A stretch of 64,000 nt of DNA from Longimicrobiales bacterium. Its GTDB lineage: Bacteria; Gemmatimonadota; Gemmatimonadetes; Longimicrobiales; Gaopeijiaceae. The stretch's first letter is position 1. Each line of letters starts with the position of its first letter. The notes beneath the pieces were generated by a model. That model saw only the letters and a program-made list of their open reading frames with translations. It was not told where the DNA came from and made no database searches. Below are positions 16,164-55,360 of the stretch, piece after piece. Position numbers and translations under genes: made by a program. The stretch is taken from positions 3,856,501 through 3,920,500 of the forward strand of contig OX638356.1 in the NCBI GenBank assembly GCA_951813395.1, read 5' to 3'.

Positions 16164-17111
16164 TCACGGCGAAGGTCGCGGCCTTGGATTCGGGAAGATC
16201 CTGATCGCCTGTGCCGACAGCGCACTCAGTGGGTCCATCTCGAAACACCGGCCTCCAGCCTCCACCTCGAAGAACTCTTGGTACTCCGGCTCGCCACGAT
16301 CTTCCCAGATCAACCGGTAGATCCCGATTAGCGAATGCGTCAACCGACCGAGCTGGGTGAGAGTGTGCGCAGGGTCTCGCTGTGCGAGGGGCTTGAATCG
16401 CAACTCCTTGTCGTCAGTGTTGGCGAAGTCGTGCTCGACGTTACCCCCATGCACGAAAAGCGAACTCCCCCCATACTCGACATGGTACTCTCTTGCCATC
16501 CCTGCCTTCTCGAACGCTTCCTGCTGTGTTAGCCCGTGCCACTGGTCAGCCTGACTCAATTCATCCGTAACGTCTCGGTAATCCTCCGAGTCGATCCACT
16601 GGCGGAACGAGCGACTCCTGCTCCGGAACCAGTCGAAGATGTCTGAGTCTCCCTTGAGCAGGTCCCGGGTGCTGGGATTCCTGGTTGCCTTGGCGAAACT
16701 GCGCCGACCCTTAACGGCGAGAAACAAGGCGAGCTGACGGGCGCTCGTGTCGGAAGGATCCTCAATCACGAGCCGGAGGTCACGTTCCAGTTCAAGAAGA
16801 GTGCGAAACGTCGCGAAGGCTGGCTCCTCCAAGCCAAGCGCCCAGAGCACCCTGATAGCCTCACCGGTGATCAAAACCCGCCGGAAGAGAGCTTGAACGA
16901 CGAGATCGCGCAAACCTAACTCAGATCGGAGAGAACCCAAGTTCTTGAAGAGAAAACAGCCGTGGCCGACGACCGTTTTCGCCAAATCCCAGGCATCAGG
17001 TCGTCCTTCCAAGCACGCTGGATGATCGCGAGCAAAGAGATCCCTCTCCCAGAGTCTTCCGGAAAAAAGCCCTTCCAGCACGCCGCCTGGCTCGTCACTC
17101 TCTCTGGTCAC
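16164..17111 (-). CDS. DUF5677-like protein
   Basis: 315-residue, mostly helical soluble protein with a GTG start at 17111. The central part (ALFRRVLITGEAIRVLWALG, then FATFRTLLELERDL) resembles DUF5677, a family of unknown function often seen near mobile or defence genes. A short second conserved block reads SSLFVHGGNVEHDF. No signal peptide or membrane segment is visible. Base composition is less GC-rich than flanking core genes, consistent with transfer. It sits alone on the minus strand, between the Tle1 fragment and the Ig-like pseudogene. Function unknown. Confidence 0.6.
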   Translation of the reverse strand: MTRESDEPGGVLEGLFSGRLWERDLFARDHPACLEGRPDAWDLAKTVVGHGCFLFKNLGSLRSELGLRDLVVQALFRRVLITGEAIRVLWALGLEEPAFATFRTLLELERDLRLVIEDPSDTSARQLALFLAVKGRRSFAKATRNPSTRDLLKGDSDIFDWFRSRSRSFRQWIDSEDYRDVTDELSQADQWHGLTQQEAFEKAGMAREYHVEYGGSSLFVHGGNVEHDFANTDDKELRFKPLAQRDPAHTLTQLGRLTHSLIGIYRLIWEDRGEPEYQEFFEVEAGGRCFEMDPLSALSAQAIRIFPNPRPRPSP

Positions 17112-17403
17112 ATTGGTTTCCGTGTTCGCGGTGCGTCACCGGTCGCGAAGCTCACCAGACACGGTGCAGATCCCTCCCTCAATCACGCTTTCAAGTTAGC
17201 CCGTTCGCCGAATCCGTGCGCGAGCCAAGGCACTGCCCTTGGCCGAGTTCACTCCATCCGGTCTGGCCGAGAACCGTCATCGCGTCATCAGAGGAGACGT
17301 CAAGAGGATACCAACTCTGACTGGGACCAATTGCATGTTGGGTTGCTAGGCACCTATGCTCGTGTGCCCTCGCCGACCCGTGACCTTGAACTTCAGGAAA
17401 CAA

Positions 17404-18484
17404 ATGTCTCCTGCCGGACGCCCCGGACCATATGGCACGTCGATTCTCTCCCACGCTCGAAGAGCACCCGCGAGTCACTCTCCTCCGAAACGCAGCTTCG
17501 TACTCGCGGCCGCCGCCACAGCACTGATGGCCCTTTCAGCGGCGGCTTGCGGCGATGGCGGTACAGGACCCGCTCCGGCTCCGGCTCCAAACCGGGCACC
17601 TCTGGCAAGCGGCTCGATCTCGCCTCAAACGGTAACCGCAGGGCAGACAGTCATGGTGAACGTGGCCAGCTACTTCACCGATCCGGACGGAGACGCCTTG
17701 ACCTTCACGGCGACGAGTTCGAATGCCGCGACAGCATCAGTCTCGGTGTCCGGAAGCGTGGTGACAGTGACCGCGGCCGCACGGGGAGTGGCGACCGTAA
17801 CGGTTACAGCCCGAGACTCAGGCGGCATGTCGGCACAGCAGACGTTTACCGTCACCGTGCCCAATCAGGCCCCGGTCGCGGTGGATGCTGTCCCGGCACA
17901 ATCCGTCTTCGTCGGGGACTCGGCTTCCGTGGATGTATCGGCGTACTTCAATGACCCGGACGGAGACGCGCTGAGCTTTATTCGGTGGCGAACTCGGACG
18001 AGACGGCAGTCTCGGCATCGGTGTCCGGGAGCGTGGTTTCGCTGACCGCGATCACCCAGGGGATGTCCACCGTTACGGTGACCGCGCGCGATCCAGATGG
18101 GCTGTCTGCAGAGCAGAGCATCGCGGTCACGGTACCCAATCGGGCCCCGACTGCTCTCGACACCATCCCATCCAGGACCCTCCTGGCCGGGAATACTCTG
18201 GAGTTCGACCTGGCGCGCTACTTCGCCGACCCTGACGGAGATGCCCTGACCTTCACGGCGGCCAGCGCCAACGCCGGGGTGGCCTCCGTTGAATCGGTTG
18301 GCAGCACCCTGACGATCACTGGGCGGGCGCCCGGTAGCACGAGGATGACGGTTACGGTTACCGATCCTGCGGGGATGGCCATTCAACAGATGTTCGCTGT
18401 CACGGTGCCTAATCGGGAACCGATTGCGATCGGCAGCATCCCCGGGCATTCGGTGGAGCCCGGGCAGGCGGCCGCTGTCTCCGC
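17404..18484 (+). pseudogene. Ig-like repeat lipoprotein, frameshifted and cut by IS21
   Basis: Surface lipoprotein with tandem cadherin/Ig-like repeats of about 75 residues, each containing a FTDPDGDALTF-type Ca-binding core and a VTVTARDSGGMS-type strand. The ATG at 17404 follows AGGAAA; a signal peptide ends in the lipobox LSAAAC followed by GDGGTGP. Near 17980 the frame breaks after NDPDGDALSF; a one-base deletion restores a third repeat beginning VANSDETAVSASVSGS. The fourth repeat starts (REPIAIGSIPGHSVEPGQAA) and is interrupted at about 18484 by IS21 end repeats. Both lesions make it nonfunctional. The 290-bp stretch between 17112 and 17403 shows nothing recognisable. Confidence 0.8.
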
Positions 18485-19258
18485 ATTCCGACGATTCCGA
18501 TCACAGATTCCGGAGGATTCCGATCACCTTGGGAGATCAGAGGTCCATAGGGGCGCTGGGGGTCGGGTTACGGGTTTGAAGTTTAGGGGCTGGAGGGGGT
18601 CTTCGTCGAGTGATGGGGCCATGGCCGGTGTGTTGTGGGGACAGTGGAGGGCCGGTTTTCCGGAGGGGTAGAGGTAGGGCGAAGGGGATTGGACGGCCTT
18701 TACGGCGGGATTTTCGGGGTTCCGGAGGCCGGTTTGGCCCGGAACCGGGTCCCTTTGTCCCGGATTCGGGGGATTCGGAGGGATCCGGGTGGCCGCAACG
18801 GACGCCCGGACGGCCACACGGCCCGCTCAGAGCCGTCTTTCCGTCTTCTCGTCCCGATGGCGGGGAGAGACGCGCTTGCGGAGGCATGCTTGAGCCCGGT
18901 CTCTCAGCGGATCAGGCGTCGCTGGGGACGGCGTGGGGTTCCTTCGTCGAGTCGTATAGTCTTCTCATGGAGGCGCCCTTGAGGGTGATCCGGTGTGCGT
19001 TATTGAGGAGACGATCGAGGATGGCGTCGCCGAAGGTGGGATCGCCGACGACATCGTGCCAGTGCTCGACGGGAACCTGGCTGGCGAGCAGCGTGCCGCG
19101 GCGGGCGTAGCGGTCGTCGAGGACCTCGAGGAGGTCGTGGCGTCCCTGGCCTGAGAGCGAGGCGAGCCCCCAGTCGTCGAGGACGAGGAGCCAGGTCCGG
19201 GCGAGCCGCTGGATGACCTTGGGATACGACCCGTCGCCGCGGGCGAGGGTGAGTTCGT
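18485..19258. mobile_element. IS21-like element remnant
   Basis: One end of an IS21 family element. Two copies of GATTCCGATCAC (18493-18504 and 18516-18527), plus a partial GATTCCGG between them, are the multiple terminal repeats typical of IS21 ends. The 18530-18911 stretch is noncoding and holds nothing recognised. The istB coding region follows on the minus strand and is broken at 19258 by IS1634. The istA gene and the other end are gone. Confidence 0.65.
18912..19258 (-). pseudogene. istB: IstB-like ATPase C-terminal fragment (IS21 helper)
   Basis: The minus strand encodes the last 115 or so residues of an IstB/DnaC-like AAA+ helper ATPase of IS21 elements. Recognisable blocks are ELTLARGDGSYPKVIQRLAR, the Walker B LLVLDDWGL, the sensor-like TLLASQVPVEHWHD and the terminal DAILDRLLNNAHRI. 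The N-terminal portion with the Walker A motif is missing; the reading frame runs straight into the left inverted repeat of IS1634. The fragment has no start of its own. Confidence 0.85.
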
Positions 19259-43459: not shown

Positions 43460-44311
43460 GTGGCCGACGTGGGTCTGGGCACGGCGCTGTTCCTGTCGTT
43501 GACGCTGCGGCGACCGCTGCTGCTCGAGGGCGAGGCCGGGGTGGGCAAGACCGAGGTCGCGAAGGCGCTGTCCGCGGGGCTGAACCGCGCGCTCATCCGG
43601 CTGCAGTGCTACGAGGGGCTCGACCTCGCATCCGCCGCGTACGAGTGGAACTACGCGAAGCAGATGATCCATATCCGGGCGGCGGAGGGGGGTGAGGGGG
43701 CAGCGGATGGCCGGGAATCCTCCACCGCCGACCTCGCCCGCGACGTCTTTTCCGAGGACTTCCTCATCCGTCGCCCCCTGCTCTCCGCCCTGGATCCCGC
43801 AGACGGTGTCGCCCCGGTGCTCCTGATCGACGAACTCGACCGCACGGACGAGCCCTTCGAGGCCTACCTGCTTGAGGTCCTGTCCGACTTCCAGATCACG
43901 ATCCCCGAGTTGGGAACAGTGACCGCTGCCGAGCCGCCCCACGTCATCATCACCTCGAACCGGACGCGCGAGATCCACGACGCTTTGAAGCGCCGCTGCA
44001 TCTATCACTGGATCGACTATCCCAACGCAGCGCGCGAGCTGGAGATCCTGGCCTCACGGGTTCCCGACGCCCCCGAGCAACTGAGCGTTCAGGTCGTTGC
44101 ATTCGTGCAGAAGGTGCGCGAGCTGGAGCTGTTCAAGAGGCCCGGCGTGGCCGAAACGCTCGACTGGACGCGGGCGCTGATGGCGCTGGATCGCCACACC
44201 CTGGACCGGGAGACGGCCCACCGAACGCTGGGCGTCCTTCTCAAATACCAGGACGACCTGGAGCGGATGGCCGAGGGTGGGGTGGACGAGGTGATGGGGG
44301 CGGCAGGGTGA
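43460..44311 (+). CDS. coxD: MoxR-type AAA+ ATPase CoxD
   Basis: AAA+ chaperone of the MoxR family that, with CoxE, helps mature molybdenum hydroxylases by sulfuration of the Mo site. Walker A is GEAGVGKTE, Walker B is VLLIDELDR, and the sensor is VIITSNRTREIHD. The GTG at 43460 is the first standard start, but the coding-like sequence NPASVEDAVALLRGQGY before it is also typical of the family, so the real start probably lies nearer 43385 and may be CTG. It normally pairs with coxE, which here lies 9.9 kb away. Confidence 0.9.
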   Translation: MADVGLGTALFLSLTLRRPLLLEGEAGVGKTEVAKALSAGLNRALIRLQCYEGLDLASAAYEWNYAKQMIHIRAAEGGEGAADGRESSTADLARDVFSEDFLIRRPLLSALDPADGVAPVLLIDELDRTDEPFEAYLLEVLSDFQITIPELGTVTAAEPPHVIITSNRTREIHDALKRRCIYHWIDYPNAARELEILASRVPDAPEQLSVQVVAFVQKVRELELFKRPGVAETLDWTRALMALDRHTLDRETAHRTLGVLLKYQDDLERMAEGGVDEVMGAAG

Positions 44312-44340: not shown

Positions 44341-44906
44341 ATGCCAAACGGAGGTTCGGACTGCTGCGGGACGCGCTGGTTCAACCGGGCGAACAGAGGC
44401 GAGATGGGTAGCAGCAATCATGACCATTCAGTACCCAGCCACTGCGAGATCAGGGACCTCGCTATCAAAACCCCTTCTATACCTACTGCGCGAAACATCC
44501 CTACCGACTGCAACGGCGGGTTCCAGTGCCCCTCGGCCCGGCCTACGTCCATGTCGAGTCGTTCGAGGAGCGCGACGGAGGGATAGAGGTCTGGTCGGAG
44601 CGCAAGCCTTGGAAGGACGCACCCCACAACGAGGAGATCCGCGGCCAGCTGCTCGGTTTGCTCGAAGACCCCGGTGAGCTCTCCGACAACTACCCGTTCT
44701 ATGGCGATAGCATGTTGAGCGTCGTGGTAGACGAAACCCAGAGACTCCGAGAAAAGCGTGCGATCCCCATCCTGGAGCGCATCGCGCAGGCACTCCGGAG
44801 TGAAGGTGAAGCCTGGGACGGCGTCCACAGCGCGATCGAGAGGATTCAGAGGGCGGTCAGGGAATCAGATGATAATCAATTGAGGCCAGAGGCGAGGCCA
44901 GGGTAG
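44341..44906 (+). pseudogene. Cys-rich hypothetical protein with a frameshift
   Basis: Begins MPNGGSDCCGTRWFNRANRG and continues to SHCEIRDLAI. At about 44466, in the run ATCAAAACCCC, one base seems missing; restoring it gives the continuation NPFYTYCAKHPYRLQRRVPV, then PLGPAYVHVESFEERDGG, to TGA at 44906. The paired Cys-Cys near the start, a middle Cys, YC and His suggest a zinc knuckle. I recall the N-terminal style from a group of uncharacterised bacterial proteins but cannot name a family. The second part alone could be translated from GTG 44526 (126 residues). Confidence 0.6.
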
Positions 44907-45034
44907 AGACCGAATGTGAGGCCAGAGACAACGGAGGTGCTGCGACCGCTTTGAGAGCTTGGAGACACCCGCCGCCCTCGCTATTTTCCCCCGACTGCGG
45001 AAAGGCCAGAGGTAGAGGCCAGAGAAGAGGAGAG

Positions 45035-46225
45035 ATGAGCCCACTGGACCATCGAGACCTGGACCGACTCCGAATCGACCTTGAATCGGACCGGGTAGAA
45101 CGCAAGGCGTCAGCCGCCGATGCCAACAAGCTTCGGCGAAACATCTGCGCGTTCGCCAACGATCTCCCTGGCCATGGCCTGCCCGGTGTCGTCTTCATTG
45201 GAGTCGAGGACGACGGTGGCTGCGCCCGCATCACCATCGACGACCAACTCCTGACGAAGCTCGCTGCGATGAAGGACGACGGGAACATCATGCCCATGCC
45301 ATCGCTCGTCGTCCAAAAGCACATCTTCGCGGGGTGCGAAGTCGCCGCGATTGTCGTCGAGCCTTCACGGAGTCCACCGGTTCGCTATCGAGGACGGGTC
45401 TGGGTTCGCGTCGGTCCGACGGTAAGGCAAGCGACCGCCGAAGAAGAGCAGCGTCTGAGCGAGCGGCGGCGCGCAGGTGAGCGCCCTTTCGATCAGCGAC
45501 CGGCTCAGGGGGCCACCGCGAAAGACCTCAGCCTCAAGTACTTCGAAGCCCACTACCTGCCACAGGCAATGGCGCAAGATGTGCTGGCGGACAACCGGCG
45601 ATCTCCGGATCAGCAACTCCGATCGCTGCGTCTGCTCGTGGATGACGTGCCGACCTGGGGGGCGCTTCTGGGTCTCGGACGCGACCCGCAGAGCTGGATT
45701 CCCGGAGCCTATGTGCAGTTTCTCCGTATCGACGGCACGGAGATCACGGATCCGATCCGCAGCCAGAGGGTGCTGACCGGGAGGATCGAGGATGAGTTGC
45801 GACAACTGGACGAACTCCTGAAGCTGAACATCTCGGTCCGCACCGAGGTCGCGACCGTATTCCGCGAGCGACGTTCGCCCGACTATCCGGTTGCGGCACT
45901 CCAGCAGCTCGCGCGAAACGCGGTGATGCATCGCAGCTACGAGGGTACGAATGCGCCAGTCCAGGTCTACTGGTATTCCGACCGAGTCGAGGTTCGCAGC
46001 CCCGGTGGGCTCTACGGGCGGGTCACTCCGGACAACTTCGGGAGCGGAGCCGTCGACCACCGGAATCCGCTCGTCGCTGAGATCATGCACCACTTGGGCT
46101 TCGCTCAGCGTTTCGGTCTCGGAATACCGCTGGCGCGGAGGGAACTGCGCCAGAACGGGAATCCGGAACCGGAGTTTGACTTTGGACCCACACACGTCGT
46201 CGTCACAGTAGGGGCCGCCCCATGA
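45035..46225 (+). CDS. Schlafen-type AlbA_2 domain/ATP-binding protein
   Basis: 396-residue protein from the ATG at 45035, preceded by GAGGAG. The N-terminus is an AlbA_2 (Schlafen) domain: DRVERKASAADANKLRRNI, then FANDLPGHGLPGVVFIGVED. The C-terminus is a HATPase_c_4-like domain as in RecG-related regulators: LARNAVMHRSYEGTNAPVQV, EVRSPGGLYG and FGLGIPLARRELRQNG. Such proteins are often found in defence or regulatory cassettes and may bind RNA or DNA. Its stop overlaps the ATG of the ParA-like gene (ATGA), so it is the first member of a tight operon. Confidence 0.9.
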   Translation: MSPLDHRDLDRLRIDLESDRVERKASAADANKLRRNICAFANDLPGHGLPGVVFIGVEDDGGCARITIDDQLLTKLAAMKDDGNIMPMPSLVVQKHIFAGCEVAAIVVEPSRSPPVRYRGRVWVRVGPTVRQATAEEEQRLSERRRAGERPFDQRPAQGATAKDLSLKYFEAHYLPQAMAQDVLADNRRSPDQQLRSLRLLVDDVPTWGALLGLGRDPQSWIPGAYVQFLRIDGTEITDPIRSQRVLTGRIEDELRQLDELLKLNISVRTEVATVFRERRSPDYPVAALQQLARNAVMHRSYEGTNAPVQVYWYSDRVEVRSPGGLYGRVTPDNFGSGAVDHRNPLVAEIMHHLGFAQRFGLGIPLARRELRQNGNPEPEFDFGPTHVVVTVGAAP

Positions 46226-47205
46226 AGACCATCGCCTTCTTCAACAACAAGGGCGGCGTCGGAAAGACCTCCCTCGTCTACCATCTGGCCTGGATGTACG
46301 CCCGTCTCGGCGTGAACGTGCTGGCCGCCGATCTCGATCCACAGGCGAACCTGACCAGCATGTTCCTGAATGATGAGGAGCTTGAGCCGCTCTGGCCGGA
46401 AAACGGGGAACGCCGGACCGTGTACGGCGCCCTCCGACCCCTGCTGGAAGGAACCGGCGACGTGGCCGCCCCTCGGGTGGTGGAGCCTGAGCCCGGTCTC
46501 GGACTCGTAGTCGGAGATCTTCTTCTGGCGATCGCCGAGGACGAGCTGTCGAGCCAGTGGCCCGCCTGTCTGGACCGCAAACCACGAGCGTTTCGCGTTC
46601 TGTCAGCCCTCGCACGCATTCTCCGGCAAGGCGCCTCGCAAATCGACGCTCAAGTGATTCTGGTAGACGTCGGACCCAACCTGGGAGCGTTCAACCGTGC
46701 TGCTCTCGTCACTGCCGACTCGGTGGTCGTGCCCCTGGCCCCAGATCTCTACTCGCTACAGGGTCTCCGCAATCTGGGGCCGACTCTCCGGCGGTGGCAG
46801 GAAGAGTGGAAGGAGCGCCGGGAGCGCAATCCGGTAGGGGACATCGAGGTGCCGGAGGGTGCCATGCGGCCTATCGGCTACATCGTCATGCAGCACGCGG
46901 TTCGTCTGGACCGACCGGTCAAGGCCTACCGACGGTGGATGGAACGGATTCCTGCCGTGTACGGCAAGGCGGTAGCTGGTGAGAGCACACCTCAGGCGAC
47001 AATCACAGATCACGATCCGAATTGCCTCGCGACGCTCAAGCACTACCGCAGCCTCATGCCACTCGCGCAGGAAGCCCGGAAACCCATGTTCGCGCTCAAG
47101 GCGGCCGATGGTGCAATCGGGGGGCATGCGGCAGCCGTGCAGGGGTGTTATCGCGATTTCCTGGCTTTGGCCAAGACGATCTCGAAGCGCGTCGAGAACA
47201 TATAG
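46222..47205 (+). CDS. ParA/Soj-family ATPase
   Basis: 327-residue P-loop ATPase of the ParA/MinD class. The deviant Walker A is NNKGGVGKTSLVYHLAW, the switch I-like motif is DLDPQANLTSMFL, and Walker B lies in VILVDVGPNLGAF. Such enzymes form ATP-dependent dimers on DNA or membranes. No ParB or centromere-like repeat is near, and its position between an AlbA_2 protein and a nuclease-like gene indicates a role in an accessory cassette rather than in chromosome or plasmid partition. It overlaps the upstream gene by 4 bases. Confidence 0.92.
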   Translation: MKTIAFFNNKGGVGKTSLVYHLAWMYARLGVNVLAADLDPQANLTSMFLNDEELEPLWPENGERRTVYGALRPLLEGTGDVAAPRVVEPEPGLGLVVGDLLLAIAEDELSSQWPACLDRKPRAFRVLSALARILRQGASQIDAQVILVDVGPNLGAFNRAALVTADSVVVPLAPDLYSLQGLRNLGPTLRRWQEEWKERRERNPVGDIEVPEGAMRPIGYIVMQHAVRLDRPVKAYRRWMERIPAVYGKAVAGESTPQATITDHDPNCLATLKHYRSLMPLAQEARKPMFALKAADGAIGGHAAAVQGCYRDFLALAKTISKRVENI

Positions 47206-47247
47206 CCCCATGAAGTGCGACATCGGTTCTCTGGTGACTAAGGTCGT

Positions 47248-48252
47248 ATGCACAGCGGGAATCCTATGAACGTTTCATTCCGTCCGACTGGTCCGGCGCC
47301 AGAGCCGCCTCTGCCGCGTGGAACCTTCACCCCTGAGAGGATGGCCGATCTGGCCAGCGGTCTCGAAAAGACGATAGCGACGATCAAACGATGGGGAATT
47401 GCTGTGGCAGGCGAAAGTCGGTTGCCAAAGACTGCCAAACTCCTGCGAAATGTCGCCTCCACACGGTCGTTTCCCAAGTCGCAAGCAGAGCTAGAGAGGA
47501 TTGCGCATGCTGCTTCTGATGCTCAGGAGCTCATTCTCGTCAGAGGTATGCTACCGCCGGAGCCGTTGGACTCCACTGTCGAGGTCCTGCGCCGAGCTAC
47601 CGGCGGAACATTAGGAGTGACCCGGCACGAGGCCTATCAGGCTCAGAGCGAACTCTGGGTCGGTGCGGCTCTGTCCTGCACCGGTGTACGGCTTGGTGTT
47701 TTGACCAGACCAGAGGGGCCAAGTCCCGATTACGTTGTATGGAATGGCACAATGGAGTATGCCATTGAAGTCAAGAGGATAGCTGGCAATAGCAGCGTAA
47801 GGAGACGTGTTTCGGACGCCGCCAGTCAGACTCGAAACAGTCGATATCACGGTGGGGCCCTTTATGTGGACCTCACTGACTGGCTCCCTTCTGACGTGAC
47901 GCTTCGCTTTGCGTCGGGGCCACCAGATCTGGAAACTCCGCAGGTGCCAATCGCGAGACGAATCGACCAGCTCCGTAAGGAGATCTTCGATGACCAAACG
48001 AGCCGGATTCGGCAGCGACGAGTGAATCTATTTGCCGTGACCGCGTTCGCTCGATTCATCCACTGGGATCTCACGGATCTGTCACAACTTCACTTGAGCC
48101 GGTACATCGCCCCATTGTGGTTCTGGGATTCTGTCAGGGACAGGTATCACCGGGCGCGTTGGCTTGCAGAGCTTCTCCACAGCGGTGCCAGTAATATCGG
48201 CTTGCATGACCCAGGTGCTCATGAGATCAGGTTCCAGAGCGACGGTAGCTAA
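47248..48252 (+). CDS. PD-(D/E)XK-like nuclease candidate
   Basis: 334-residue protein of no named family. The middle shows a possible PD-(D/E)XK nuclease core: Glu135 in SELWVGAAL, Asp161 in PSPDYVVW and the Glu174-x-Lys176 of YAIEVKRIAG, spaced as expected for a restriction-like fold. The N-terminus is helical and basic. ATG 47248 is used; an ATG at 47266 is also possible. It follows the ParA gene by 42 bp. The fourth gene, an N6-adenine methylase start, begins 3 bp after its stop, so the two were probably a modification and cleavage pair. The nuclease assignment is by eye. Confidence 0.6.
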   Translation: MHSGNPMNVSFRPTGPAPEPPLPRGTFTPERMADLASGLEKTIATIKRWGIAVAGESRLPKTAKLLRNVASTRSFPKSQAELERIAHAASDAQELILVRGMLPPEPLDSTVEVLRRATGGTLGVTRHEAYQAQSELWVGAALSCTGVRLGVLTRPEGPSPDYVVWNGTMEYAIEVKRIAGNSSVRRRVSDAASQTRNSRYHGGALYVDLTDWLPSDVTLRFASGPPDLETPQVPIARRIDQLRKEIFDDQTSRIRQRRVNLFAVTAFARFIHWDLTDLSQLHLSRYIAPLWFWDSVRDRYHRARWLAELLHSGASNIGLHDPGAHEIRFQSDGS

Positions 48253-48255
48253 CCC

Positions 48256-48324
48256 ATGCCCCAGCTAGAACATATCGAAGCCATCGAGCGCCGCCTCTGG
48301 AGCGCAGCCGACACCCTGCGAGCT
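48256..48324 (+). pseudogene. HsdM/N6-adenine methylase N-terminus, truncated
   Basis: ATG 48256 starts MPQLEHIEAIERRLWSAADT followed by LRA, the standard N-terminal helix of type I restriction-modification N6-adenine methylases (where LRANSNYAS normally follows). The similarity stops after 23 codons at 48324, next to an 82-bp inverted-repeat element and other insertions. No other part of the methylase is found in the window. It is placed 3 nt after the nuclease-like gene, as the fourth gene of the operon. Confidence 0.8.
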
Positions 48325-48342
48325 GTACCGGTTCCGATGGAG

Positions 48343-48424
48343 TGGACGCCCCCTCCCGGCGGCATCGCGATGTGCCAAGATGGTGCTGAGCGATTGTCGA
48401 CCATCTGAGGGAGGAGGCCATCCA
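48343..48424 (+). mobile_element. 82-bp inverted-repeat element (MITE-like), copy 1
   Basis: A short nonautonomous element. Its ends are inverted repeats: TGGACGCCCCCTCCC at the left, and at the right the reverse complement of TGGATGGCCTCCTCCC, which is the same sequence with one extra base and two substitutions. The interior is GC-rich and has no coding potential. A second copy in the opposite orientation lies at 51261-51342. It sits 18 bp after the point where the methylase gene is broken. Confidence 0.75.
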
Positions 48425-48525
48425 CATGGGAGAGCCTAGGAGGCTGCGCCGCAGAACACCGCGGCGGCTATCATTAGAGGTATCGAGGGCATAGCGAAAG
48501 GTTTGCGGCCAGCCGAGGGGGGTCA

Positions 48526-49841
48526 ATGGGAACGACGTTCCGACCGTACCAGCCGGACCAGATTCTGATGCTGCCACCGGATCTTCGGGAGTGGGTGCCG
48601 GAGGGGCATCTGGCGCACCACGTGAGCGACCTGGTGGACGCGGCGGATCTGAGTGCGTTCTACGCGCCGTACGAAGGGGACGGGCGTCGCAACGCGCCGT
48701 ACGATCCGCGGATGATGGTCAAGGTGCTGATCTACGCGTATGCGACGGGGACGTTTTCGTCGCGGAAGATGGCGAAGAGGCTGGAGGAGGATGTGGCGTT
48801 TCGGATGCTGGCTGCGGGGAACTTTCCGAAGCACCGGACGCTGTGCGAGTTCCGCAAGCGGCATCTTGAAGACTTCCGGGCGGTGTTCGTCCAGGTGGTG
48901 GTGCTCGCGCGGGCCTCGGGCCTGGTGGGGCTGGGCAGGGTATCGGTGGACGGGACGAAGGTTCGGGCGAACGCGAGCAAGCGCAAGGCGATGAGCTACG
49001 GCCGGATGGCGAAGGAGGAGTTGCGGCTGAAGGCGGAGATCGAGGCGCTGGTGGGGCGAGCCGAGGCGGTGGACGAAGCGGAGGACGAGCGGTTCGGCGA
49101 GGAGGCTCGCGGAGACGAGTTGCCGGACGAACTCAAGCGGCGCGAGGACCGGCTGGCGGCGATCCGGGAGGCGAAGGCGCGCCTGAGCAGAGAGCGGCGG
49201 ACGATGCGCGGGGCCGCAAGCCGGGGCAGAAGCGCAACCCGAAGGGTGGCAGTCCCTACAAGCGGGAGTACGGGGAGCCGGACGAGCGGGCGCAGAGCAA
49301 CTTCACGGATCCGGAGAGCCGGATCATGAAGACTTCTTCGGAGGGGTTCCAGCAGAGCTACAACGCGCAGACGGCGGTGGAGGGGGAGAACCAGTTGGTG
49401 GTGGGCGCCGGGGTGACGAACAACGCGAGCGACCAGGGCCAGCTGATTCCGATGATCGATGGGGCGGAGGTGGTGTGCGGCGGGACGCCCGGCCAAGTGC
49501 TGGCGGACGCGGGATACGGCAACGAGCAGGACCTCCGGGAACTGGAGAAGCGGGGCGTTGACGGGTACGTGGCGCTGGGCCGGGAGGGCAAGGCGCCCGC
49601 CAGGATCGATCCGGAGAAGCATCCCGCAAGGGCGCGCATGGCCGACAAGCTGGCGACGGATGAGGGCCGAAGACGCTACGGGCGTCGCAAGTGGCAGGCG
49701 GAGGCGCCCATCGGATGGATCAAGGAGGCGATGGGCTTTCGGCGATTCAGCTTCCGGGGCCTCGAGAAGGTCCAGGCCGAGTGGACTCTCGTGTGTCTGG
49801 CGCTCAATGTGAAGCGGCTGCACACCCTTCAGGCAGCATGA
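48526..49841 (+). pseudogene. IS1182 family transposase, frameshifted
   Basis: DDE transposase of the IS1182 group. The first part runs from ATG 48526 (TTFRPYQPDQILMLPPDLRE), through the N-terminal DUF772-like domain (NAPYDPRMMVKVLIYAYATG) and VSVDGTKVRANASK with the first Asp. At about 49195 one base is missing within GAGCGGCGGACG, and coding continues one frame over as RGRKPGQKRNPKGGSPYKRE, LADAGYGNEQDL (second Asp) and GWIKEAMGFRRFSFRG (Glu region) to TGA 49841. A single-base correction would restore one full-length protein. Confidence 0.88.
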
Positions 49842-49936
49842 GACCGTGATCGTTCACCACCGACGCCGGCCCCGGCGCTCTCGAAGACCCTCGCCACCCC
49901 AATTCGCCGCCCACGGCCCCCCTCAGCCCCTCAGCA

Positions 49937-51045
49937 GTGCGGATCCCCACCCCCTCGCTCCTCGAAGCAGTCTGCCCGCCGCCGATCCTCACGCCTCTCT
50001 GTCACATCCACTGCGCTTCTGCGGCGCACGCTCCTAGCATCATCGGGATCGATCTGGCAAAGCGGAGCTTTCAGGTGCACGGGGCGAGGGCGGACGGGTC
50101 GGTGGCGTACCGCAGGAAGCTGAGCCGCGGGAAGCTGCTGAGCTTTCTCGCCTCGCAGCCGAAGTGTACGGTGGCGATGGAGGCGTGCGCCGGCGCCCAC
50201 TACTGGGGCCGGCAGATCGCCTCGCTCGGCCACGAGGTGAGGCTGGTCCCCCCGATCTACGTGAAGCCCTTCGTCAAGCGCTGCAAGAACGACGCGGCTG
50301 ACGCGGAGGCGATCACGGAAGCGGCGCAGCGACCGACCATGCATTTCGTGGCGTCAAGACCGAGGCGCAGCAGGCGCAGGGGATGCTCTTTCGCACGCGC
50401 GACCTGCTGGTGCGCCAGCGCACGCAGACGATCAATGCGCTTCGGGGTCACCTGGCCGAGTACGGCGTGGTCGCTCCGCAAGGCAGGGCCCGGATCCGGC
50501 AGCTGGTCGGGGAGCTCGAGGCCGGGGACTGTGGTCTGCCGGGGGCGGTCGTCGAGTTGGGCTGGTTGCTGCTCCGGCAGATCGACGAGCTCGACGAGAA
50601 GATCGACGGACTCGACCGGAAGATCCGGACGAGCGCGGGGGAGCACGAAGAGACGGCGCGGCTGATGACGATCCCGGGGATCGGGCCCATCACCGCGCTG
50701 GCGCTCGAAGCGTTCGCGCCGCCGATGGAGAGCTTCCGGCGCGGCCGCGACTTCTCGGCCTGGCTCGGTCTGGTGCCGCGGCAACACACGACCGGGGGAA
50801 AGCCGAGACTGGGCAGGATATCGAAGATGGGCCAGCGGGATCTCAGACGGCTCCTGATCACAGGAGCCATGGCGGTCGTCCGGCACGCGAGCCGACACGA
50901 CGAGATCAAGGATCCGTGGCTGGCCGGGATGTTGGAACGCAAGCCGAAGAAGGTGGTCGCGGTGGCCCTCGCCAACCGGAGGGCGCGGAGGGTCTGGGCG
51001 CTGGCCACAAGGAAGGAGACCTACCGGGTTCGCGCTGCCGCCTGA
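49937..51045 (+). pseudogene. IS110 family (IS1111 group) transposase, frameshifted
   Basis: DEDD transposase resembling IS1111: IIGIDLAKRSFQVHGARADG, CTVAMEACAGAHYWGRQIAS and KNDAADAEAITEAAQRPTM. Similarity starts at about 50035; the GTG at 49937 is only the upstream limit of the frame. At about 50351 a base is missing (GTGGC then GTCAAGACC), and coding resumes as TEAQQAQGMLFRTRDLLVRQ with the C-terminal domain MTIPGIGPITALALEAF and DFSAWLGLVPRQHTTGG, whose Ser is catalytic. Ends at TGA 51045. In this group the bridge RNA is expected downstream of the gene. The 49842-49936 stretch holds nothing recognised. Confidence 0.85.
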
Positions 51046-51159
51046 GCGGCCAAAGAAAGGAGAGGAGCTGCCGGGACAAATGGGCAGTAGGACGCAGGAA
51101 CGGGTAAGGGGAAACGGTCGATAAGACGGGGTCGGAAAAACCAGATAGCGCTACAGGGC

Positions 51160-51487
51160 CTTCGAGCCCGCTTCATCGATTTGGATCCGATCTCGCGGGC
51201 CCGGGCCGGGGTCATGTACCCGTGACGCTGGAGAAGCCAGCCGTTGTTGTAGCGCTCCATTGGATGCCTCCTCCCTAAGATGGTTCGACTATCGCTTCGT
51301 ACCATCTTGGCACATCGCGATGCCGCCGGGAGGGGGCGTCCACCCCATCGATGAAGGCCCCGATCACCTCTGGCCTCCTCGAGGGTTTCGAAGTGGTGCA
51401 GACAGATGCACTCCTCCTTGAGCGTGCGGATGAAGCGCTCCGCGACGCCGTCGCACTCCGGCTCGCCCACGTAGCCGTCAGCTCGTC
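51160..51487 (-). pseudogene. IS3-type transposase C-terminal fragment with an 82-bp element inside
   Basis: Minus strand: YVGEPECDGVAERFIRTLKE is the end of an rve integrase core with the catalytic Glu. After LHHFETLEEAR the frame shifts by one to VIGAFID, then the 82-bp element interrupts, and the ending ERYNNGWLLQRHGYMTPARA resumes after it. Removal of the element nearly restores the usual tail of IS3 family transposases. The upstream two thirds of the gene are missing; the fragment is joined to a zinc-ribbon gene remnant. Confidence 0.72.
51261..51342 (-). mobile_element. 82-bp inverted-repeat element (MITE-like), copy 2
   Basis: Same element as at 48343-48424, inverted. The first 42 bases from TGGACGCC inwards are identical in the two copies, and the rest is close. 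Terminal repeats TGGACGCCCCCTCCC and TGGATGCCTCCTCCC match at 13 of 15 positions. It splits the IS3 transposase fragment between FID and ERYNNGW; ATGG is present on both sides and may be the target duplication. Confidence 0.78.
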
Positions 51488-51960
51488 GGCCGTATGTATC
51501 CCTCCACAGTGACTTCAGCCCCCAGCGGCCCATAAGCAACAGACTCGATCCATCCACGGCGCTTCAGCAGTTGCTGCAGCACCCGCGTCTCCTTGAGGCC
51601 CCAAGAGTACCTGGCTGCAACAAAACGGCGCTCATCAGGGTTGATCCTGTTGTCGAGGCGCTCCTGACCGTGAACTGTCTCCAACAGCAGCCTTTCCGCC
51701 CGTTCGTCCGTCCCCGGGAGTGGTTGGGACGCCATCCGGGATACCGTGTCATGCGTGATTCGTGGAACGACCCCATCGCGATTGCGGTCGCGAACCCACC
51801 CAGTCAGGTTGCGGCGCAAGTCGGGGATCCTTTCGCTTCGCGCTGTATCCACGGGGATCTCAAACTTGCCGCACTAAAGGCATTCAATCCCCAAACGGTT
51901 GCGCGTTCTCCTCATCGCGCTCCTCTCGCAGATGGGGCAGTCAGCGTCCGTTACGTTCAC
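51478..51960 (-). pseudogene. zinc-ribbon hypothetical protein with TAG in the zinc knuckle
   Basis: Starts at GTG 51960: VNVTDADCPICERSAMRRTR, then IECL, a TAG stop at 51876-51874, and CGKFEIPVDTARSERIPDLR. The two Cys pairs (CPIC and C-x2-C, where the stop occupies one of the x positions) would form a zinc ribbon, so the stop is probably a recent mutation. The frame continues to VLQQLLKRRGWIESVAYGPL and ends soon after at the junction with the IS3 fragment. An ATG-less restart at GTG 51852 would give 124 residues without the ribbon. Function unknown; the location suggests an accessory gene. Confidence 0.5.
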
Positions 51961-52026: not shown

Positions 52027-54069
52027 TCACCCCACCCGCCCGAACCTCACATCCCGCGTCCGACCGTTGCTCACGTAGAACCCGATCACCTCTCCGTTGC
52101 GGTCGCGCTCGAAGGCGAACGACAGGCCGCCGCCCGAGAACTCGTCCTTCTCGCCCGTCGTCAGCGTGACGTCGCCGAGTCTGCGCTGGTACATGACCAG
52201 CGCGTCGTCTTCCACCGAGAATGTGTAGAAGGTCTCGAGTTCGTCGCTGAAGAACCGGCCCGCGAAATCCGCCAGGTCGTCCTCGGTGGGCGCCCACACT
52301 TCGGGCGCCTCGCCCTCCAGGCGTGTCACGTGCTGCTCGGCGCCATTCTGGTGCATCGTGGCGCCCTCGACCTCGCCGTCTTCGCCGCGCAGGAAGGTGA
52401 CTGAAGCTTCGACGGCGAGCAGGCGGAAGGTCGTGTCCGACGTCGGCACGATCTCCAGGCGCTGCTGGCCCGTCAGCTGCGTGTACAGGGTCTCGTCTTC
52501 ACGTGTGAAGGTGAGGATCATGTTCGGGGCTGCGTCCAGCGCGTACCGGCCGACATACTCGTCGAAGGCTTCCGGGTCGTAACTGTCGGGATCGAATTCG
52601 TCGGCGGTTTCGCCCTCGCCGCCCTCTTCCTCCTCCTTTTCCATCGCATCCTCGAAGAACGCCGCGGCCAGGTCGAAGGCCACGTTGCTGTTGAACTGTG
52701 CGTTGTTGCTCTGGGTCGTGATGCCCGCGTTGATCTCGGGGTAGTAGGCGAGCATGGAACGGTGGGCCACGTCGGCGCCTCCGTGGTGAACGCGCCTGAG
52801 GCCGCCCTGCTCGTCGATGAAGAGGCCGTAGCCGTAGCCCGTCTCCTCGCCGTCGGTGAGAACGAACGAGGTCATCATCTCGTCAATGCTTTCGCGGGCT
52901 CCGACGCGGGGGTTGGCGTAGTTCTCGATCCAGGTCTGGAGGTCGCCGATGGTGCTGTAGATGGCGCCGGCGCCGACCGCTCCGCCGAGGTCGCCGATCT
53001 GGCGGTATCCGTCCGGAGTGGGCGTGTAGCCCTCGGACTGGTTGGGGACGATGTGGCGGATGGAGGGCCGCACCATGGTGCCGGTCATGCCCAGCGGGCC
53101 GAAGACGTTTTCCTGCATGAAGACGTGGAAGTCCTGGCCCGAGGTGCGCTCGACGACGGTCGCGGCGAGCCCGTAGGCGGTGTTGTTGTAGTTCCACTCG
53201 GCGCCGGGAGCGTTCTGGAGCGCGGGCTGGCGCTGGACGATGTCGATGAGCTCCGAGCGGTCGATCCAGTCGCCGCGGTCGAGGCGGCGTCCGGTCATGC
53301 GGAGCAGGTTCAGGAACTCGCGGAGGCCGGAGGTGTGGGTGATCAGGTGCTTTACCTGGATGGTTTCGTCGAACTCGGGCAACTCGGGGATGTGGGTGCG
53401 GATGTCGTCGTCGAGGGACAGCTTGCCGCGTTCGGCCTGGAGCATGATGCCGAAGGCCGCGAACTGCTTCGAGGTGGAACCGATGTTGGTGCGCGTGTCC
53501 TCTTCGAACGGGAGGCCGTAGGCGAGGTTGGCCATGCCGAACGTCTTCGAGTACAGGGTGCGGCCGTCTCGCCACACGCGGACGGCGGCGCCGGGGGACT
53601 GGGGGCCGTCGTAGCGCGACATCAGCTGGTCGGTGAGCTTCTCGGGGTCGGTGGCGACGTCTTCGTGGCGCAGGAGCGTGATCTCGTAGCTGCCGGCGGC
53701 GTCTTCATCGTCTCCTGCGGTGAAGAGCTCGATGGTGTAGGTGCCTTCGTCCGATGTCTGCCCGCTGAACCTCTGGGGCCCGCGGCCCAGGCCTCCGATG
53801 CGTCCGAGCTGTGTCCCGTCAGGGCCGAGAATGCGGATCGTGACGTCGACGGAGATCTGGTTCACCTCGCCGAGCAGGAACTCGTTTGCGTCCGCGTCGA
53901 TCGTGTAGCGGGCGGTGTCGCCTGCGGAGATGGTTTCCGAGAGAGTGCGGCCACGCTGCAGCTCCGTGGTCTGTGCCAGGATCGGTCCCGCACTCAGAAT
54001 ACTCGGAATCGCGACGCAGAAAGCACACGCGAAGTGGCGAACAGGATGCCGGAGGGCCATCGGTTTCAT
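52027..54069 (-). CDS. secreted beta-lactamase-family serine hydrolase
   Basis: 680-residue secreted protein. ATG 54069 (MKPMALRHPVRH) has GGAG 7 nt upstream and starts a signal peptide ending in ILAQ. A pre-peptidase-like beta domain (about residues 40-150) precedes the class C beta-lactamase/DD-peptidase fold, with the Ser-x2-Lys motif GSTSKQFAAFG, Tyr-x-Asn in WNYNNTAYGL and HHGG near the end. A C-terminal domain of about 220 residues follows an acidic linker (EKEEEEGGEGETADEFDPD). It may be a periplasmic peptidase or esterase. It lies between the accessory island and coxE and is not clearly part of either. Confidence 0.9.
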   Translation of the reverse strand: MKPMALRHPVRHFACAFCVAIPSILSAGPILAQTTELQRGRTLSETISAGDTARYTIDADANEFLLGEVNQISVDVTIRILGPDGTQLGRIGGLGRGPQRFSGQTSDEGTYTIELFTAGDDEDAAGSYEITLLRHEDVATDPEKLTDQLMSRYDGPQSPGAAVRVWRDGRTLYSKTFGMANLAYGLPFEEDTRTNIGSTSKQFAAFGIMLQAERGKLSLDDDIRTHIPELPEFDETIQVKHLITHTSGLREFLNLLRMTGRRLDRGDWIDRSELIDIVQRQPALQNAPGAEWNYNNTAYGLAATVVERTSGQDFHVFMQENVFGPLGMTGTMVRPSIRHIVPNQSEGYTPTPDGYRQIGDLGGAVGAGAIYSTIGDLQTWIENYANPRVGARESIDEMMTSFVLTDGEETGYGYGLFIDEQGGLRRVHHGGADVAHRSMLAYYPEINAGITTQSNNAQFNSNVAFDLAAAFFEDAMEKEEEEGGEGETADEFDPDSYDPEAFDEYVGRYALDAAPNMILTFTREDETLYTQLTGQQRLEIVPTSDTTFRLLAVEASVTFLRGEDGEVEGATMHQNGAEQHVTRLEGEAPEVWAPTEDDLADFAGRFFSDELETFYTFSVEDDALVMYQRRLGDVTLTTGEKDEFSGGGLSFAFERDRNGEVIGFYVSNGRTRDVRFGRVG

Positions 54070-54184: not shown

Positions 54185-55360
54185 ATGACCGGCACGCGCA
54201 CCCACCCCGGCCGCCTCCCCGAAAACGTCGCCCACTTCGTGCGCCTCCTGCGCGCGGCCGGGCTGCCGGTGGGACCCGGTCACACGATCACCGCCGCGCG
54301 TGCGCTAGCCGCCGTGGACATCACCAGCAGGCAGCAGTTCTTCTGGGCGCTGCACGGCGCACTCGTCTCGTGTCACGAGCACCGCCACATCTTCGAGAGC
54401 GCATTCCGGCTCTTCTGGCGGGACCCGTTCGGGGCGGACGAAGCGCTGGCCGCGCTGTTGTCGCGCTCGCAGATCCCGGCCGACGAGCCGACGAGCAAGG
54501 CGCCGGCCCGGTTGGCCGCCGAGCACGAGGCCACGGACCGGCCCTCCGGCGAGTTCGAACGCGATCCGGCCGAGCAGGTCGCCGTGCGGATGGCGTTCTC
54601 GCCCGACGAGGTGTCCCGCACCAAGGACTTCGAGGAGATGACGCCCGCCGAGACACGGCAAGCCCGGGAAGCGATGCGCAGGCTCGAACTCGACCTGCGG
54701 CCCGTGCGCACGCGCCGGCACCGTCCCGATCCGAGGGGACGTCTGATCGACTTGCGTCGCACCCTGCGGACGACAGTGCGCACCGGCGGCAATCCGCTGC
54801 CGCTCCAGCGCCGATCGATGGCGACACGGCGTCCCGTGCTGGTGACGCTTTGCGACATTTCGGGATCGATGGAGGCGTATTCGAGGATTCTGCTCCACTT
54901 CTTCCACGCGCTCACAAACGCCGCCGACCGCGTGCATACGTTCGTATTCGGGACACGCCTGACCAACATCACGCGACTTCTGAAGGACCGCGACGTGGAC
55001 CGCGCGCTCGATCGCGTCGGGGATACCGTCACGGACTGGTACGGCGGCACGCGGATCGGAGCCGCGCTGGGCGCATTCAACCTGAACTGGTCCCGCCGGC
55101 TCCTCGCGCAGGGGGCCGTCGTGCTGCTGGTAACCGACGGACTGGATCGGGACGGCGGGGCAGGTATTCGGCTACACGCACGACGCCTGCGCAAATCCTG
55201 CCGAAGACTGGTCTGGCTCAATCCTCTGTTGCGCTACCGCGACTTCGCTCCCCGAGCCGCGGGCATCCGCGCCCTGCTACCGGAGGTGCATGAACACCGG
55301 CCTGTGCACAACCTCGACAGTCTGGCGCAGCTGGCCGATGCGCTGAGCGGCCGCATGTAG
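54185..55360 (+). CDS. coxE: VWA domain protein CoxE
   Basis: 391-residue von Willebrand A-domain protein of the CoxE family, the partner of the MoxR ATPase CoxD in maturing molybdenum hydroxylases. The MIDAS motif is CDISGSMEAYS, with later metal ligands in GGTRIGAAL and VTDGLDRD. The N-terminal part (LPENVAHFVRLLRAAGLPVG) is standard. ATG 54185 is used; a TTG two codons earlier is possible. It belongs functionally with the coxSLMD-like operon that ends at 44311, but an island and the serine hydrolase separate them. Confidence 0.92.
   Translation: MTGTRTHPGRLPENVAHFVRLLRAAGLPVGPGHTITAARALAAVDITSRQQFFWALHGALVSCHEHRHIFESAFRLFWRDPFGADEALAALLSRSQIPADEPTSKAPARLAAEHEATDRPSGEFERDPAEQVAVRMAFSPDEVSRTKDFEEMTPAETRQAREAMRRLELDLRPVRTRRHRPDPRGRLIDLRRTLRTTVRTGGNPLPLQRRSMATRRPVLVTLCDISGSMEAYSRILLHFFHALTNAADRVHTFVFGTRLTNITRLLKDRDVDRALDRVGDTVTDWYGGTRIGAALGAFNLNWSRRLLAQGAVVLLVTDGLDRDGGAGIRLHARRLRKSCRRLVWLNPLLRYRDFAPRAAGIRALLPEVHEHRPVHNLDSLAQLADALSGRM

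Follow-up and report, generated by a model that had tools for sequence, protein, structure and literature searches.

A conserved pair of Schlafen-type AlbA_2 and ParA ATPase genes, a likely accessory defence module, at an apparently decayed type I restriction-modification island of a Longimicrobiales bacterium

Among the auxiliary effectors of BREX-type systems, Schlafen RNases carrying a minimal histidine kinase have been described (PMC12839542). They present the same effector plan (AlbA_2 plus GHKL) and the same location inside BREX-related/HMA operons as the gene pair reported here, which differs in its constant, translationally coupled ParA partner; ParA was not met in the passages of that paper that were covered, and the words MinD, SIMIBI, Soj and partition are absent from it. 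Mammalian tRNases of the SLFN13/SAMD9 type have in common with bacterial AlbA_2 both the fold and the E-x4-E plus Asp pattern, but the animal proteins have large extra domains, while the bacterial ones are compact, with a GHKL C-terminus and a separate ParA. In human and rat SLFN13, RNA cleavage depends on E-x4-E and Asp, and E205/E210 mutants are inactive (PMC5862951). PARIS and Gabija also follow a two-gene plan of ATPase and nuclease effector, which resembles ours by analogy (PARIS is described in PMC12839542); however, our ATPase is of the ParA/SIMIBI class and not OLD-ABC, and our nuclease is a Schlafen and not TOPRIM. The partition ATPases ParA/Soj (3pg5, 1wcv) display the deviant Walker A, A-prime and Walker B motifs of the pair's ParA, which differs from them in having an AlbA_2-GHKL partner instead of a ParB-type one and in being scarce on plasmids. 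Finally, type I restriction-modification (R-M) systems (hsdMSR) are the apparent ancestors of the island studied here, and a complete one accompanies the same pair in a congener (G012). No description of an AlbA_2/Schlafen-ParA pairing was found in the literature searched, which is weak evidence given that preprints lay outside its scope and few subscription papers were included. Within that literature, the effector belongs to a type already known, and what is new is the constant ParA partner.

The window, i.e., the whole stretch of 64,000 nucleotides that was analysed, belongs to a genome of a single 4.09 Mb contig. The insertion site is flanked on the left by a coxD-like ATPase gene (43460..44311, + strand) that is kept in 22 of the 23 genomes of the genus. 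The island opens with a Cys-containing gene of ~187 aa (44341..44906, +), which the first-pass annotation had rightly called frameshifted: it is split between two frames in the window, and its pieces lie in one frame in the congeners G012 and G018 (loci L080 and L081, with 70-72% identity to the window). Three complete genes follow, with the arrangement (45035-48252) that this annotation had proposed. The first (45035..46225, +; 396 aa) encodes, according to Pfam, a Schlafen-type AlbA_2 nuclease domain and a C-terminal GHKL domain (HATPase_c_4); the second (46222..47205, +; 327 aa; Pfam AAA_31) encodes a ParA-family ATPase with a deviant Walker A and overlaps the first by 4 nt (ATGA). The third (47266..48252, +), a separate cargo in the slot between ParA and hsdM, encodes a nuclease candidate bearing a PD-(D/E)XK motif found in 7 homologues; its 334-aa ORF spans 47248-48252, and the homologues favour the start at 47266.

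The hsdM remnant comes next (48256..48324, +), with its ATG at 48256 and the first 23 codons only. As already recognised in the first-pass annotation, this is an HsdM-type start: all 23 residues are identical to the intact HsdM of G012, itself a match to N6_Mtase (E 2.5e-72), and a chance resemblance was rejected. The remainder of hsdM was not found in the genome, where the sole match was a distant other methylase (31% identity), and no hsdS or hsdR match was obtained within 44-54 kb of the window. The window therefore lacks the hsdM, hsdS and hsdR set of a type I R-M system, of which these 23 codons are left. The piece could be an insertion scar, as in HMA operons (see below), or a deletion remnant, the adjacent IS obscuring which. 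This IS block (48335..51350) has 66-nt inverted arms (92%) and contains an IS1182-type transposase (48526-49841) and an IS110-type transposase (about 50035-51045). At the right end of the island lies a decayed copy of a 306-aa gene of G012 (51493..51960, −), recognised by sequence match (51% identity over 159 aa, with one in-frame stop). The right flank of the insertion site is a serine hydrolase gene (52027..54069, −; 680 aa), and coxE is the next gene after it, at 54185; the earlier placement of the island between coxD and coxE is refined accordingly.

Comparison with congeners clarified the history of this site. The site can be defined as empty in G017 and G016 (loci L211 and L218), since coxD directly abuts the serine hydrolase gene there, and it is occupied by AlbA_2-ParA in the window genome, G021, G012 and G018. 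The cargo after ParA varies by genome. The window genome has the 334-aa protein at this place, and G018 has another Schlafen. In G021, a DprA-like gene overlaps an uncharacterised gene of 243 aa, and both are on the opposite strand (L079 10057-11440). The G012 cargo is the longest and consists, in order, of genes for an N4/N6 methylase, a HATPase protein, a product that is uncharacterised, HsdM, HsdS, another Schlafen and HsdR, with the 306-aa gene at the end. The G012 island is a complete type I R-M system with the AlbA_2-ParA pair in first position. Because both ends of the window island match those of the G012 island, the right one surviving as the decayed 306-aa gene, sequence comparison identifies the window island as a decayed, IS-filled descendant of a type I R-M island like that of G012, from which IS-associated decay removed the hsdM-hsdS-hsdR core. 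The complete island at the same congener site, together with the genomic context, upholds the initial view of a defence island. Replacement of HsdR by ParA as the translocase, proposed in the same annotation, was rejected, since the G012 island has its own hsdM, hsdS and hsdR and yet carries the pair.

It could be argued that the pair in the window is itself non-functional debris of this R-M island and of note only as part of a degraded locus, as hsdM, hsdS and hsdR are lost, an IS block is present, the first gene is split between frames and the right-end gene is decayed. Yet the window AlbA_2 and ParA genes are intact, 82-93% identical to their congener copies and with their catalytic residues kept, and the pair occurs elsewhere without R-M genes, which makes this explanation quite unlikely.

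Several other observations were made around these islands. In G012, ParA and hsdM are separated by a tight operon (L080 8273-13010) that encodes the N4/N6 methylase, a double-HATPase protein and a protein of 398 aa that is uncharacterised, and a HATPase protein similar to that of G012 lies near cytosine methylases in another locus (L016 6252-8309). Small genes (about 88-94 and 134-158 aa) are located between coxD and the serine hydrolase gene in five congener loci (L212, L217, L219, L220 and L222) and are possibly a toxin-antitoxin pair.

A ParA profile search of a species-level genome collection returned at least 480 relatives, and the best 80 of these (57-92% identity, full length) were analysed; they cover at least 15 phyla, archaea included. 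Profile comparison placed AlbA_2 directly upstream of ParA in 77 of these 80 nearest relatives, to which a fragment in L170 can be added, leaving two clear exceptions (L112 and L154). AlbA_2 was in turn found without ParA in seven loci (L086-L092), so neither gene strictly requires its partner. The exact 4-nt overlap was observed at 69 of the 79 junctions measured, and the AlbA_2 and ParA protein distances showed a correlation (Mantel r of 0.59) that was not reached in any of 2000 permutations. In the AlbA tree, the close members lacking ParA are nested inside paired ones and the phyla are mixed, which suggests a horizontal spread of the pair and a secondary loss of ParA in the members without it. 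It should be noticed that L102 carries a second AlbA_2-ParA pair (16686-18877), on the opposite strand and about 7 kb from the first on the same contig.

By contrast with this conserved pairing, neither the 334-aa nuclease nor hsdM was found beside the pair in any of the best 80 loci. No universal third gene emerged from ORF clustering around the 80 pairs, in which the only recurrent defence-type genes were the SNF2 helicase and the DUF1156 methylase, in about 10 of 80 loci, and a universal third component can accordingly be discounted. As the pair is kept while the nuclease and hsdM are absent beside its 80 relatives, AlbA_2-ParA is a stand-alone module, and the comparative data identify these two translationally coupled, jointly inherited genes as the real functional unit. 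These results bear directly on the scheme of the first-pass annotation, in which AlbA_2, ParA, the PD-(D/E)XK protein and the N6-methylase formed one modification-linked system with ParA as a translocase stand-in. The tight operon spacing in the window and the nuclease homologues that adjoin methyltransferases in several genomes speak in its favour, but the survey of the 80 loci largely refutes it; in addition, the congener pairs precede quite different genes (methylase/HATPase/hsdMSR in G012, DprA-like in G021, another Schlafen in G018), and the nuclease is found elsewhere without the pair. We therefore consider such a four-gene system very improbable.

The AlbA_2 protein matched SLFN_AlbA_2 of Pfam with E 4.8e-14 and 53.3 bits, above the curated cut-off of 25.3, and HATPase_c_4 with E 4.4e-19. 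Two glutamates, E17 and E22, are kept without exception (71 of 71 sequences), with the spacing of five residues found between E205 and E210 of SLFN13; an equivalent of the third acid (D248 in SLFN13) is also available, with D59 (Asp in 62 of 71 sequences) and D60 (53 of 71) as candidates, so that the catalytic acids of SLFN13 all have counterparts. The AlphaFold model built from 43 sequences (pLDDT 92) matched the SAMD9 tRNase domain with its N-terminal part (Z 9.6), which also matched human Schlafens in Foldseek, and GHKL kinases with its C-terminal part (Z about 9.9); the structure 3lmm matched it along its whole length (Z 23.3). The Schlafen-type AlbA_2 domain thus probably acts as an RNase, whose targets, by likeness to SLFN13 and SAMD9, would be tRNA/rRNA-like.

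Concerning ParA, AAA_31 was matched with E 1.3e-27, and among 81 sequences the motif residues were highly conserved (K10 0.98, K15 0.95, and D37, D39 and D149 1.00). The deviant Walker A with its signature lysine, the DxDPQxN motif and the Walker B Asp of the ParA/MinD family are all present, so that the protein has the full set of motifs expected of a deviant-Walker ATPase that is active. Among solved structures, 3pg5 is the closest relative (full-length match, E 1e-39), and the solved relatives (3pg5 and 1wcv) are Soj/ParA proteins. Presumably, 3lmm is DIP2311 and both 3lmm and 3pg5 come from one bacterium, with nearby locus tags.

This likeness raises the question of whether the pair serves in a partition-like role or in element maintenance, in which case AlbA_2-GHKL would be a ParB-like DNA-binding partner stabilising islands rather than acting against phages. 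Indeed, ParA retains every residue of a working DNA-partition ATPase, its solved relatives are Soj/ParA proteins and the pair is located on variable islands. However, plasmids (72,556 records) provided only distant, ordinary ParA proteins, with at most 33% identity among the matches listed, apart from one further record in the 60-80% identity band, and phages gave no ParA match above 60% identity, the matches listed for them being distant, ordinary ParA proteins as well. Moreover, the ParB-type gene that adjoins ParA in a ParABS system is replaced by an AlbA_2-GHKL neighbour in 78 of the 80 loci, this partner retains the invariant Schlafen catalytic acids and the GHKL domain, and the pair is embedded within HMA operons. 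We thus regard a partition or maintenance role as unlikely.

At E 1e-10, the 135 ORFs adjoining the pair matched 214 PADLOC models, whereas 107 ORFs from random regions matched 7, these control regions being taken from Gemmatimonadota only and not phylum-matched. The matches near the pair included HmaB (6), HmaA (5), HmaC (4), DISARM, BREX, and type II and III methylases/nucleases. DUF1156 sequence was present at most 9 kb from the pair in 10 of the 80 loci (the match was long in seven and a shorter piece of the gene in three), for a chance expectation of about 0.1-0.4 of 80 loci; with one DUF1156 gene per genome, at least 8 such loci would occur with P < 1e-8. The pair lies between the helicase and the methylase in several DUF1156 loci and is embedded inside HMA operons. 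At four loci, short duplicated hmaA/hmaB ends (28-44 aa) flank the pair within these operons (L098 7650-7781 and 9996-10079; L101 10153-10266; L110 3869-3991; L114 3070-3201), and from these duplicated gene ends the pair looks to have entered the HMA operons as an inserted cassette. On these sequence matches, the neighbours of AlbA_2-ParA are strongly enriched in defence genes, in particular those of the HMA/DUF1156-DUF499 system. Note that recognised defence genes are near only part of the 80 loci, the rest lying among housekeeping genes, and that the HMA set (HmaA helicase, HmaB DUF1156 methylase and HmaC DUF499 ATPase), related to type-1 BREX, is absent from the window.

The 334-aa protein appears to follow a path of its own. 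Its PD154-155 and EVK168-170 residues are invariant in 7 homologues of 26-67% identity, as the PD-(D/E)XK motif requires, and these homologues adjoin an HMA system (L180), a type III R-M system (L015), a type IIG enzyme (L014) and a cytosine methylase (L016); with the hsdM remnant beside the window copy, this makes five different modification systems in all. The protein also occurs elsewhere without AlbA_2-ParA. The motif part of its original description as a PD-(D/E)XK-like nuclease is confirmed, while the fold is not supported: its profile had no match in Pfam or PDB, and a single-sequence model, untrustworthy at pLDDT 37, agrees with an alpha-beta-beta-beta-alpha order of elements near the motif. 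No relatives were found in viral contigs. Its motif and neighbours make the protein a good candidate for a PD-(D/E)XK effector that roams separately from the pair. The genome of the window contains a second, truncated copy of this gene (L019 9027-9350; G000:C1 near 929 kb), encoding the C-terminal 108 aa with 43% identity and located near an IS1182-type transposase.

Altogether, a defence role of the pair is likely, and the best explanation, which we hold to be moderately probable, is that of an accessory defence module in which a ParA ATPase gates its effector, a Schlafen RNase. The AlbA_2 RNase joined to the GHKL ATP-binding domain would be the effector, which ParA, as an ATP-dependent gate or a sensor bound to DNA, would most likely keep inactive or position on DNA. 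On sensing phage DNA or an attack on the restriction system of the host, ParA would free AlbA_2, and this would lead to translation shut-off, growth arrest or abortive infection. The pair would enter restriction/modification and BREX-related islands as an accessory cassette; in the window, it would have survived as the left end of a type I R-M island located between coxD and the serine hydrolase gene.

As the pair is conserved across phyla and archaea and is often beside known anti-phage systems, it may represent a small, undescribed immune module. More tentatively, and with less than even confidence, AlbA_2-ParA may be a widespread immune system of two genes, with a partition-type (SIMIBI) ATPase that senses invasion and then activates a Schlafen tRNase, either solo or as a back-up in type I R-M, HMA and BREX-type islands. 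The pair is compact, and many genomes carry it intact, so that direct testing is feasible. If true, the ParA class, known for moving DNA and organising cells, would gain a role as an immune switch, and bacterial immunity would be linked to the antiviral Schlafen/SAMD9 proteins of animals.
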